From the IMG/VR virus record IMGVR_UViG_3300024255_000017, positions 1 to 64,000 of that record: 64,000 nt of DNA; one strand, 5' to 3'. Position 1 is the stretch's first letter, and each line of letters begins with the position of its first letter. The notes under the pieces are model-generated. The model was not told the origin of the DNA. It was given only the letters and a program-made list of their open reading frames with translations, and did not search any database. The DNA comes from a virus. The position numbers and the translations under genes were made by a program. Positions 3,315 to 10,095 of the stretch are shown piece after piece.

Positions 3315-3408
3315 TATCAATTGCAATATTGCCTTAGGTGGTTTTACCCGTTCCATCGGGCAGTATTGCAATTACTATTGATTATGAAATAAACCACCGG
3401 GTTTTAAA
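3315..3408 (+). promoter_or_regulatory. structured 3' region with possible pseudoknot
   Basis: A 13-bp stem with one G-U pair forms between TTGCAATATTGCC (3321-3333) and GGCAGTATTGCAA (3359-3371). Its loop contains a CCCG/CGGG mini-stem (3347-3360). The loop segment GGTGGTTT (3337-3344) is also complementary to AAACCACC (3391-3398), so a pseudoknot or an alternative fold can form. It lies between the DUF932-like gene and its terminator. Confidence 0.6.
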
Positions 3409-3433
3409 TTTCCGTTTTTCTCCCTTGGTTATA

Positions 3434-3475
3434 GGGCAGCCACAAATCTGTATTTCAGACTAGGCTGCCCTTTTT
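3434..3475 (+). terminator. intrinsic terminator
   Basis: GGGCAGCC (3434-3441) pairs with GGCTGCCC (3463-3470), with an inner TCTG/CAGA extension, and is followed directly by TTTTT. The stem is GC-rich in AT-rich DNA, which makes this a confident Rho-independent terminator for the gene ending at 3314. Confidence 0.9.
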
Positions 3476-4238
3476 AGTGCTTAAAACTCACACATTCTAG
3501 AGGGCCTTCTAGAGCAGCCAAGTAAATATGCCTATTTTATGATGATTTTTACCCACATTTAGGGCATTATATCTCGGTCCTGCTAGCCATAGCCTCTAGA
3601 ACGGCCCTCTAGAGCCCATATATAGCCCATATATAGCCCATTATTTCACATATATACACACAAATAGCACTCTAGAGCACCTTCTAGACACATAATATAG
3701 CCTATATGGTGATATATCGGCCCTACAGGAGATAGTCCTCCACAGAGCAGCTAATAAGCAGCATTGTCAAAAACCCTAAAACCAGTCCACAGCTTGCTAC
3801 AACCACCATTAGGGCATAATCTATTAGAATATCGCTGTAGACGGTAATAGGGTATATACAAGCTATATCCGCCCTAGAGCAGCCCTAGCAGGTACTAGAG
3901 CTAGTAGTACATGGTAGTACATGGTAGTGGTAGTAGTACATGGTTAGTCAATGGTGGTCTATCTGGTCTGGTATGGTCTATTGCCATGGTGGTAGCTAGT
4001 ATTGTCCTTGCTAGTCATTGATTGCTATTGTGGTAGTCATAGTACCCTTAGAGAATTATACCCTTGAATACTATTATTCGCTTGATGCTTTTTAGGTCAA
4101 ACTGGCTCATGAGTTTGGGCCCACACAAAAATTCTAGCCAGAAAATTTGCTAGTATCTAGAATGTGAGTCTAAGAAAGATGTCTAGTAATGCCAAGTCTA
4201 GTCCAGAAATTTTTTCATCCTGTAAAAAAAGAGCTCTT
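3476..4238. other. gene-free, CTAG-rich repeat region
   Basis: No convincing gene is seen on either strand over about 760 bases. CTAG appears about 19 times, often as CTCTAGAGC or TTCTAGAGC, whereas about three would be expected by chance. There are also CATATATAGCC doublets (3618-3640), a TAGTACATGG cluster (3905-3943) and long runs of TGGTAGT-like words. The composition differs from the flanking genes. Candidate roles are a replication origin, a packaging or recombination site, or multiple binding sites for a phage protein. Confidence 0.55.
3905..3943 (+). repeat. three copies of TAGTACATGG
   Basis: TAGTACATGG occurs at 3905-3914, 3915-3924 and 3934-3943, the first two exactly head to tail. 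The repeats lie in the CTAG-rich gene-free region and could be iterons or operator sites. Confidence 0.75.
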
Positions 4239-4239
4239 T

Positions 4240-4288
4240 AAAAACTTTCAGATACTTCTAGTACTTGTTATATTTTAATTATAATAAC
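4240..4288 (+). promoter_or_regulatory. promoter-like element (TTTCAG / TTGTTATATTT type)
   Basis: AAAAACTTTCAG (4240-4251) is followed after 12 bases by CTTGTTATATTTTAATTATA and then ATAAC. The same pair of blocks occurs before the genes at 6377 and 10792 and is a looser relative of the right half of family A. It lies 17 bases upstream of the gene at 4305 and ends the long gene-free stretch. Confidence 0.55.
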
Positions 4289-4472: not shown

Positions 4473-4865
4473 ATGAAGCTACTCTACTGTAATACCTGCA
4501 AGGATACTTTCAGTCTATCGTATACTACCAAGACCTGCCATTGCGGCGAGTCTGGTGGTCATTACGAGGCTGATGGACTAAACGCGAAATACTACGGTAA
4601 CTCGACGCCACTCGGATTTACTAATGATACTTTTAAATTCGCGAGGGAACGACAACCAGAATGGGGTAACGGATTTGAGTTTACCGCGTTCGTTATTCCA
4701 AAGGTTTGTCCTACTATGGTCCATATAGATTATTCAGAGTATATTCCAGTTGCTGATAGTACTTATGATGATGGATACGATTATTTAGAGGAAGATGTGG
4801 CTAAGATAAAGGCAGAAAAAAAATTAGGTAATGCATTTAAACAAACTGATAGTGATGCTATATAA
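4473..4865 (+). CDS. zinc-ribbon-like hypothetical protein
   Basis: The 130-aa protein starts with a compact metal-binding pattern: C6-x2-C9 (CNTC) and C22-x-C24 (CHCG). The remainder is acidic and aromatic with no recognised domain, and the tail is Lys-rich. Zinc ribbons of this size in phages often contact nucleic acid or RNA polymerase, but no specific function can be given. It starts three bases after the upstream small membrane protein gene. Leucine codons here are often CTA/CTC rather than the TTA that prevails elsewhere, suggesting a different recent history for 4.3-5.1 kb. Confidence 0.6.
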   Translation: MKLLYCNTCKDTFSLSYTTKTCHCGESGGHYEADGLNAKYYGNSTPLGFTNDTFKFARERQPEWGNGFEFTAFVIPKVCPTMVHIDYSEYIPVADSTYDDGYDYLEEDVAKIKAEKKLGNAFKQTDSDAI

Positions 4866-4882
4866 TAATAACAAATGGAACG

Positions 4883-5047
4883 ATGAATATGAAGACTAAA
4901 AAAATTAAAAGAACTGCTGAACTCTGTCTATGGTGTTTAGGCAACGGCGCAATCGGACTACTATTACTAACTCTTCTCTTCGCGTTTACGGTGGCGTTCT
5001 GTCATATATTTGGATTGGAAACCTCCTGGGCTAACAATATACTCTAA
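4883..5047 (+). CDS. small membrane protein, 54 aa
   Basis: A basic N-terminus (MNMKTKKIKR) precedes a hydrophobic segment from about residue 23 to 45 (AIGLLLLTLLFAFTVAF), as in a single-pass membrane protein with the N-terminus inside. An ATG two codons later is an equally possible start. It follows the zinc-ribbon-like gene after 17 bases and ends that operon. Function unknown. Confidence 0.55.
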   Translation: MNMKTKKIKRTAELCLWCLGNGAIGLLLLTLLFAFTVAFCHIFGLETSWANNIL

Positions 5048-7322: not shown

Positions 7323-7811
7323 ATGGTAGAATATAAAAATAGATACGGAGACGTATATACGTTTACAAAACAAGAAGATGGTTCAGTCCTATGGGAAGGT
7401 TCTTTTGAACACTGTAGATTTGGAAGCTCTAATGATTATAAATTAGCATATCAGAATTACTGTAAAGATAGTTCAGGGATGGGAATTCACCCAATGCATA
7501 TTGAAGATTTTAAAGAAGCGATTCATGAAAGTGTATATGACGAAAACGATCATTATGTAGGACCTAGCGTTATTGGAAAACAATACCAAAACCTTGTGAA
7601 ATCAAATCCATGGATTAGTATGGTAGATCCAAGCGGAGGCCCTTACATTAACGAACATTCTAAACTAGATATTTTTGGTAAAGAACTAAAAGGATTATGT
7701 GTTAGGAGTTTTGAGGTGATTGAAACAGGATATAAGATTAACACATACAATGAGTTTGACCATTTAGCTGATACTAAAATCATTGGTGGTATAATTAATA
7801 CTTCTGAATAG
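7323..7811 (+). CDS. hypothetical protein, 162 aa
   Basis: Soluble protein with a beta-rich N-terminus (RYGDVYTFTKQEDGSVLWEG) and mixed alpha/beta remainder; no catalytic motif recognised. The ATG is 19 bases after tRNA-Arg. The stop is followed immediately by the family B promoter-like element that precedes the large structured RNA, so it ends its transcription unit. Confidence 0.65.
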   Translation: MVEYKNRYGDVYTFTKQEDGSVLWEGSFEHCRFGSSNDYKLAYQNYCKDSSGMGIHPMHIEDFKEAIHESVYDENDHYVGPSVIGKQYQNLVKSNPWISMVDPSGGPYINEHSKLDIFGKELKGLCVRSFEVIETGYKINTYNEFDHLADTKIIGGIINTSE

Positions 7812-7848
7812 TGAAACTATTTTTAAACTAAGTATATAATAATAAATT
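7812..7848 (+). promoter_or_regulatory. family B promoter-like element
   Basis: TGAAACTATT is followed by AAGTATATAATAATAAA. Very similar pairs occur at 10024 and 32961 and weaker ones at 9362 and 24221. It sits about 30 bases upstream of the structured RNA and would start its transcription. Confidence 0.65.
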
Positions 7849-7878
7849 CAAACGAATTAATACGTTCTTTAAAATTAT

Positions 7879-8313
7879 GGGAAGGCACAGAACGGAAAAC
7901 TTTAGGTAGCTCCTAGATGATTATTCCAATTATGTGTAGATGCGTTGCTGAAAAATTCCTGAGCAAAAGGGAATAAGGCACTAAGCTAGAACGATGGTTC
8001 ACTGATATCTCAAATGAGAAATTCAGAATTGGTTAATCACCAGAGCATTAGGTTTAACGCATTAAAAATCTAACAGAGATTTTGCAAAGACTTCCAGGTA
8101 AGCATACCGCTGAACCCTGGTTAATGACTGAACAACGCAAAGAGTATGTGGCGTAAGGTACACTTGAAGATTATGATAATCAATTACGATGATTAAGCCT
8201 CGGCCGGTTTAATTAAGTAATAGGACGGCAGTCCAAAGAGTGGTAGTCTATCATAAAGCAGCTTTCGTTAATAAAGGTATTCTCAAATCCTTTCGCATCG
8301 TCTTCCCTTTTTT
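7879..8313 (+). ncRNA. large structured non-coding RNA candidate
   Basis: About 435 bases without a gene fold into many helices. The ends pair: GGGAAGGC (7879-7886) with GTCTTCCC (8300-8307), then TTTTTT, a terminator-like end. Inside are TTTAGG/CCTAGA (7901-7916), TTATTCC/GGAATAA (7921-7976) enclosing TTGCT/AGCAA, TCTCA/TGAGA near 8009-8020, AAAATCT-aacag-AGATTTT (8065-8083), CCAGG/CCTGG (8094-8120), TTAAGCC/GGTTTAA (8193-8212) and GGAC-ggca-GTCC (8223-8234). The segment is more GC-rich than other gaps. It lacks the tRNA-like 3' end of tmRNA, the RNase P signature GAGGAAAGTCC and group I/II intron cores that I know. It may belong to a large phage RNA class such as GOLLD/ROOL or be new. Confidence 0.75.
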
Positions 8314-8328
8314 ATTAAATCAATCAAT

Positions 8329-8880
8329 ATGGCAAAAGTAAAAACAATTACACTAAACGGTAAAGCTACCGAGTATGATGTTCAATACACTAAAGCGTAT
8401 GTGGCAAAAATCATCTCAGCTCAATCAGACTTGTACCAAGAATTAAACGCAGTATCACTTCCATACAATACAGTAAAAGAAATTTATGTTGATGGGCATT
8501 TAACTGCTGAGTTGGTAGGTACTAGTTTATTATATGTTAAGGAAAAACCTAAACATGATCCTTATGTAGATCGCCATGAACCACCAAATGCAGGTATGGG
8601 TAGATATAAAGGTCATACAGTTCCAGAAGTTCCAGAAGAGTTTGATGAATCACATGCATTAGACATGGTTTTAAATGACATGATTGAATCTATGACCGAT
8701 GAAGAATTAGAGGAATTTTATAAAAACGAAAATCCACCTGAACCGTTTGCTACCGATGTAGAGTTAGCGGAGATGAAAAATGAATCCAAAGGTATTTACT
8801 TACAGAGTGTTTCTTCACCTCCACCTTACTGGGTAACTGATACTACGGCTGGAAATGTAGATATAACCTACACTAACTAA
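8329..8880 (+). CDS. hypothetical protein, 183 aa
   Basis: The N-terminal 75 residues look like a small alpha/beta domain (MAKVKTITLNGKATEYDV...); the middle is Pro-rich (PKHDPYVDRHEPPNAGMGRYKG), followed by a very acidic helix (ESMTDEELEEFY, about 123-134) and a Pro/Ser-rich tail. No family assigned. The ATG is 15 bases after the T-run that ends the structured RNA, so read-through from the RNA promoter could feed it. Confidence 0.6.
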   Translation: MAKVKTITLNGKATEYDVQYTKAYVAKIISAQSDLYQELNAVSLPYNTVKEIYVDGHLTAELVGTSLLYVKEKPKHDPYVDRHEPPNAGMGRYKGHTVPEVPEEFDESHALDMVLNDMIESMTDEELEEFYKNENPPEPFATDVELAEMKNESKGIYLQSVSSPPPYWVTDTTAGNVDITYTN

Positions 8881-10023: not shown

Positions 10024-10060
10024 TTAAACTATTCATCATTTAGGTATATAATAATAAATA
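10024..10060 (+). promoter_or_regulatory. family B promoter-like element
   Basis: TTAAACTATT followed by GGTATATAATAATAAATA, directly after the terminator and 36 bases upstream of the gene at 10096. It is the best match to the elements at 7812 and 32961. Confidence 0.7.
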
Positions 10061-10095
10061 AGGAATGAACTTTATTTTGTAAAAAAAACAAACAA

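Follow-up and report, generated by a model that had tools for sequence, protein, structure and literature searches.

Comparison with related viral sequences indicates that positions 7879-8307 (+ strand; 429 letters) of the 64,000-nucleotide stretch of viral DNA analyzed here, hereafter the window, almost certainly constitute a conserved gene for a structured non-coding RNA. Its architecture is very probably that of two manA-like modules in tandem, and kinship with manA RNA (Rfam RF01745) is, judged from model matches and shared motifs, scarcely less probable. On balance, we lean toward reading the locus as a stand-alone phage gene that would produce a stable, trans-acting RNA built from these two modules.

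A structured RNA and its relatives

The window belongs to an 81-kb viral contig from a marine phage whose full genome is probably larger. It carries T4-like genes (baseplate wedge, gp32-like SSB and primase) as well as genes for DNA ligase and for DnaJ-like and thioredoxin-like proteins. The segment singled out in the original prediction, 7879-8313, is flanked on the + strand by ORF 7323-7811 and ORF 8329-8880, with tRNA-Leu (6613), tRNA-Arg (7230) and tRNA-Gln (10451) nearby. It had been described as gene-free, and indeed its longest ORF spans 33 aa and none reaches 60 aa. It had also been called richer in GC than other gaps: the RNA does exceed the window (39.4% vs 33.2%), but the gap as a whole has 35%, and GC is higher in the gaps that contain tRNAs. 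The + strand folded at -110.3 kcal/mol, compared with -95.8 +/- 5.7 kcal/mol for shuffled sequences (z -2.6; 0 of 100 shuffles as good), while the - strand was ordinary (z -0.06). Searching the whole window against Rfam returned three tRNAs and nothing else; no tmRNA was detected there by ARAGORN or Rfam, and no Rfam match to RNase P, group I or II introns or HEARO was obtained, in keeping with the earlier view that the segment is not a tmRNA, RNase P or intron. Elsewhere in the window, nearly 1 kb (3315-4280) lacks ORFs of 45 aa and is rich in repeats of the CTCTAGAG, CATATATAGCC and ACATGGTAGT type; an origin or a further RNA may lie here.

A search with the protein encoded downstream yielded 20 viral contigs, and nhmmer placed the full element upstream in those that were long enough; further loci were reached with DNA patterns, namely L026, L060, which is divergent, and L037, which is highly divergent. 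Compared with the window, close relatives were 88-96% identical in the RNA and 72-83% identical in the downstream ORF. The relatives' RNAs differ from that of the window by indels of 1-2 nt, so no reading frame is conserved across the homologues, an outcome on which the original prediction had staked itself. L037 was 62% identical to the window overall and identical over 44 consecutive bases (8124-8167, covering P3 and the start of P4 in the second module), and this block is likely a site of function. Matches in L046, L062-L073 and genome_contigs lay inside genes and were discarded as chance; resting on a single DNA pattern, they do not imply that bacteria lack the RNA. Neither the RNA nor 20 kb of the window had a blastn match among INPHARED phages.

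To assess the structure, the strands of 19 helices were located in 11 sequences, picked with the alignment in view, and their pairs were counted. Standard pairs filled 1001 of 1012 cells (92 base pairs in 11 homologues). Two-sided changes occurred in 39 of the 92 pairs, compared with a mean of 4 and a maximum of 11 for shuffled partner columns; covariation among homologues had been set as the test of the prediction, and the RNA passed it. Eighteen helices besides the end helix had alignment support, where at least eight had been proposed. Many of the compensatory changes come from one divergent sequence, L037; nine pairs covary without it, in P4, P6b and P8 of the first module (D1) and in P5, P6b and P8 of the second (D2). 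Considered alone, D2 showed two-sided changes in 11 of 35 pairs, a count reached in 0 of 500 shuffles, and the signal dropped when partners were slid.

The end-joining helix was among the best supported. All six pairs of P0 (GGGAAG at 7879-7884 with CUUCCC at 8302-8307) covary, becoming AAAGGA/UCCUUU in L037, and the single unpaired cell is in L060. The original prediction had drawn an 8-bp helix, GGGAAGGC/GUCUUCCC, of which the outer 6 bp stand, but the next two bases fit P1 better. The P1 hairpin region (7886-7936) is closed by CACA/UGUG, which changes to CACU/AGUG in L037. P2 (GAUGCG at 7939-7944 with CGCAUC at 8294-8299) encloses both modules and changes as well, reading GUUGUG/CACAGC in L037 and containing a G-U pair in the L003 group. 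Supported structure ends at 8307. The predicted T6 tail follows at 8308-8313 and may act as a terminator together with P0; most close relatives share it with the window, but L003 has it interrupted and L060 lacks it. A candidate UGCGU/ACGCA pseudoknot was dropped because its 5' strand is P2, which pairs with the 3' end, and because ACGC lies in the D2 P3 hairpin. The central claim is borne out: this phage tRNA/accessory region contains a large non-coding RNA that is structured and has its ends paired.

Two manA-like modules inside one closing helix

At relaxed thresholds, cmscan matched 7927-8125 (D1) to manA with 25.6 bits (E 1.2e-4). Significant similarity to the manA model was also found in independent relatives: D1 of L060 scored 29.6 bits (E 1.1e-5), and the halves of L037 matched separately, D1 with 27.0 bits (E 5e-5) and D2 with 29.0 bits (E 1.3e-5), all of these E-values counting the 4227 Rfam families. 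A manA search of the 25-kb L037 record alone gave E 9e-9 and 8e-8. D2 of the window scored 13.8 bits (E 0.14), which is not significant alone; the match spans exactly 8125-8293 and uses model positions 23-182, as in L037. Given that the two halves match manA separately, we read the RNA as two tandem modules inside P2, with P0 as the outer helix. D1 (7945-8124, + strand) comprises P3, P4 with three hairpins, P7 and P8, with covariation in P3, P4, P6, P6b, P7 and P8; D2 (8125-8293, + strand) comprises P3, P4 with three hairpins and P8, and its P7 could not be matched. The order of motifs is kept in both modules and is common to manA: CUGAANAA, helix P3, UAAGG, the three-hairpin junction at P4, and hairpin P8 with GGUA...AUCC. 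Also in common with manA are the P1 hairpin, which precedes closing helix P2, and an occurrence in T4-like phages.

The manA gathering score of 55.2 bits was not reached by the window, L060, L037 or Prevotella phage Lak-B5, and therefore we do not file the RNA as a manA member. Its build also differs: P2 encloses one module in canonical manA but two in the tandem RNA, which has the extra outer helix P0, and a sigma-70 promoter at P1 in the canonical form is replaced by a boxA leader. Canonical manA occurs in cyanobacterial phages, whereas the tandem RNA occurs in Bacteroidota-type phages; rather than lying in the 5' UTR of metabolic genes, it has downstream neighbors that vary. The earlier suggestion of a new class is borne out in part, as regards score and build. 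Narrow covariance models crossed poorly between the forms: R1, for canonical manA, found D1 of L037 at E 0.0012 and missed the window (E 2.1), and R2, for D2, found one of 30 canonical manA RNAs, in the right place, at E 0.65, so that cross-detection was unconvincing.

Canonical manA was described from cyanophages and marine metagenomes by Weinberg in 2010, with a riboswitch proposed by the authors (PMC2864571), and has been treated as a single-module cis element (PMC2864571, PMC9964418, PMC7779021). We found it in at least 120 IMG/VR contigs (L074-L193). In 92 of the 101 canonical manA RNAs listed, P1 coincided with a sigma-70 promoter having no more than one mismatch, compared with 11 of 905 control positions. 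Downstream, among the 88 matches listed, an ORF started within 60 nt in 52, a tRNA was found in 8 and a terminator-like hairpin in 23. In S-CREM1, canonical manA sits flush between tRNA-Leu and tRNA-Asn. The canonical form may thus far be read either as a leader or as a stand-alone RNA.

More distant candidates came from giant phages. In Lak-B5, tRNA-Thr and tRNA-Met are separated by a gap of 341 nt, within which two manA matches lie side by side (20.4 bits, E 0.025; 19.1 bits, E 0.059). The gap ends pair as AACAUAA/UUAUGUU in the minimum-energy fold (z -2.7). The Lak RNA is present in 15 Lak genomes. The 735-kb genome LR756501 has a 74-nt match to it (E 1e-6), and it is this match that suggests kinship: the RNA, whose ends pair over ~16 bp, gave E 0.43 and 1.1 against Rfam manA, which is not significant, although both best matches in the 735 kb fall inside it. 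The D2 P6 loop, UCGGCC, is invariant among the homologues; a hairpin loop of GGCC occurs in the RNAs of Lak and of the 735-kb phage. We regard the Lak and LR756501 RNAs as putative diverged relatives, joined by weaker links than L060 and L037. In LR756501.1 (L209), a second boxA-led and apparently gene-free stretch of ~330 nt (241-577) lies directly 5' of the RNA, and a search of LR756501 that included it found no RNase P (type A). In LR756500, which has the nearest primase found (48%), searches by RF01745, R2, DNA and motif turned up no homologue of the RNA. A limited search of the open-access literature found no report of a tandem manA, of a boxA leader to it, or of manA-like RNA in Lak phages.

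The leader and the gene neighborhood

The promoter-like element of the original prediction was located at 7833-7847 (TATATAATAATAAAT, with TATATAATAATAAA at 7833; + strand), where it remains a prediction by consensus match. This 14-mer has an exact second copy at 10045, and copies with a single mismatch lie at 665, 968, 4859 and 5496; all of these stand just 5' of genes, and the element is kept in close relatives. It is followed by a small leader hairpin (AATTC-AAAC-GAATT, 7845-7858) that changes on both sides, to AATCC-AAAC/AAAA-GGATT, in relatives and is not found in this form in L060 or L037. Next comes a boxA-like antitermination element, GTTCTTTAAAA (7864-7874), whose 3' end lies 4 nt before P0. 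Its position relative to P0 is the same in the close relatives, L060, L037 and LR756501, that is, in all lineages in which the RNA has its own leader, where it reads GTTCTTTRAA, GTTCTTTGAA, GATCTTTGAAA, GTTCTATGAAA or a one-mismatch form; the motif is short, and the strict pattern has an expectation of 0.3 per 64-kb strand. GTTCTTTAAAA is identical to the boxA of the L. pneumophila Lens CRISPR leader, and long untranslated RNAs are known to be led by boxA (PMC7862264). Tethering by boxA and boxC favors formation of a leader-trailer helix (PMC10250234). Because boxA lies at 7864-7874, the transcript probably starts upstream of 7879. The same boxA-like motif (GTTCTTTGAAAATAT) occurs just before the tmRNA of the 462-kb phage LR756500.1 (~94,500-94,940, - strand), for which ARAGORN gives the tag GNNAEMRMAA.

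What lies downstream differs between lineages: an ORF of no assigned function in the window, tRNA-Gln in L060, a tmRNA-like gene in L037 and tRNA-Met in Lak. Most relatives adjoin tRNA or tmRNA genes. ORF 8329, which starts 22 nt after the 3' strand of P0, also lies downstream of the RNA in most close relatives, a linkage that is biased because these relatives were mostly fetched through that very ORF. Given the varying neighbors, the tandem form is better explained as an RNA that stands alone and acts in trans than as a riboswitch.

Several other features adjoin the RNA in individual relatives. The tmRNA-like gene of L037 (4806-4922; 117 nt; RF00023, 54.9 bits) directly follows the tandem RNA and has intact tRNA-like ends with a G3-U70 pair; inspection by eye found no tag frame with a stop. 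In L060, a hairpin-rich gap of ~100 nt separates the tandem RNA from tRNA-Gln (~10030-10062, - strand). Directly 5' of the tandem RNA in L003 is a stretch with long inverted ends, GAATTAAATATAGG...CCTATATTTAATTC (~4760-4890), that is absent in other relatives and is perhaps a mobile or structured element.

Proposed function and alternative readings

From its surroundings and leader, we consider it likely that the tandem RNA stands alone and acts in trans. Since most relatives adjoin tRNA or tmRNA genes, a link to translation is conceivable, at somewhat below even chances. The proposed course of events is as follows. Polymerase would start at the upstream promoter, and the nascent boxA would be held on the polymerase by host NusB and S10, as we infer. 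This tethering would block Rho-dependent termination of the untranslated transcript. It would also hold the 5' strand of P0 close to the exit while the 3' strand has yet to appear; P0 and P2 would then close, the two modules would fold and a stable RNA would be released. Lak phages would differ here, with the RNA excised from a tRNA array. In the least certain step, the modules would serve as repeated binding sites for a component of translation, such as the ribosome, a tRNA-handling protein or the tmRNA pathway.

This logic would parallel that of pre-16S rRNA, with its boxA, boxC and leader-trailer helix. In both, boxA lies a few nucleotides before the 5' strand of a helix that joins the ends of a large folded RNA; however, the two are not homologous, the pre-16S helix exceeds 17 bp while P0 and P2 have 6 + 6 bp, and the use of NusB and S10 by the tandem RNA is inferred only. 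The LR756500 tmRNA offers a second comparison through its upstream boxA-like motif, but the tandem RNA has no tRNA-like end or tag reading frame. A broader proposal, which we put forward tentatively and would not expect to hold in full, is that these are a distinct and widespread class of large RNA genes in huge Bacteroidota phages (the window lineage, Lak and the 735-kb phage), made like a miniature pre-rRNA and acting in trans on the machinery of translation, whether that of the host or of the phage, with cyanophage manA as a single-module cousin and not a riboswitch.

Other explanations account for part of these data. The RNA could be a cis-acting 5' leader of ORF 8329-8880, a tandem riboswitch-like element whose modules sense one ligand cooperatively. 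Such a leader would explain why ORF 8329 lies just downstream of the RNA, as it does both here and in most close relatives; canonical manA, moreover, is promoter-proximal (92 of the 101 listed) with an ORF start within 60 nt in 52 of the 88 listed, and its discoverers proposed a riboswitch. We nevertheless judge this reading unlikely, as the neighbors change (the tRNA-Gln side in L060, tmRNA in L037, tRNA-Met in Lak, tRNA-Asn in S-CREM1), the linkage to ORF 8329 carries the retrieval bias noted above, boxA is typical of untranslated RNAs, and no expression platform is free, since the 3' end is taken up by pairing with the 5' strand of P0. It is more improbable still that boxA, P0 and the fold amount to a processing or antitermination spacer, which would protect and order a polycistronic tRNA/tmRNA transcript and have no trans function. 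The boxA leader would suit such a spacer, as would the location within the tRNA arrays of Lak and S-CREM1 and ahead of the tmRNA in L037, but a protein gene follows in the window, and the interior loops are too conserved, with 44 identical nucleotides at 62% overall identity; we give it very little weight.

Two further alternatives concern what the RNA is related to. It might be a real RNA of an independent class, with its likeness to manA due to convergence on three-way junctions and similar loops, so that the tandem reading and the kinship would be mistaken. Scores below gathering, the unmatched P7 of D2, the failure of the narrow models to cross and the weak scores of the Lak and 735-kb relatives all leave room for this, but four separate significant manA matches in three lineages, in register, on the same strand and in both halves, along with the order from CUGAANAA to GGUA kept in both modules, make it quite improbable. 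The original prediction had offered a divergent GOLLD or ROOL as a possibility; on this reading, the RNA would assemble into cages or other homo-oligomers. Those RNAs are likewise large and ornate and often lie near phage tRNA islands (PMC12286853), they too have no known function, and the UCGGCC and GGCC loops are palindromic and could kiss. There was, however, no Rfam match to them at gathering threshold or even at E up to 10, their sequence and architecture are different, and at ~430 nt the tandem RNA is shorter than the studied ROOL (659 nt) and many GOLLD RNAs (>800 nt); membership of this type has hardly any probability left.

A stand-alone tandem RNA would bear on manA itself, an orphan riboswitch candidate since 2010: the tandem form points to a stand-alone RNA machine, and its tRNA/tmRNA neighborhood shows where to look for a partner. 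With the putative relatives counted in, the range of manA-like RNAs grows beyond cyanophages and takes in the giant Lak phages of human and animal guts as well as the largest known phage genome. The boxA leader, in turn, suggests that such phages may use host Nus factors for long untranslated RNAs.
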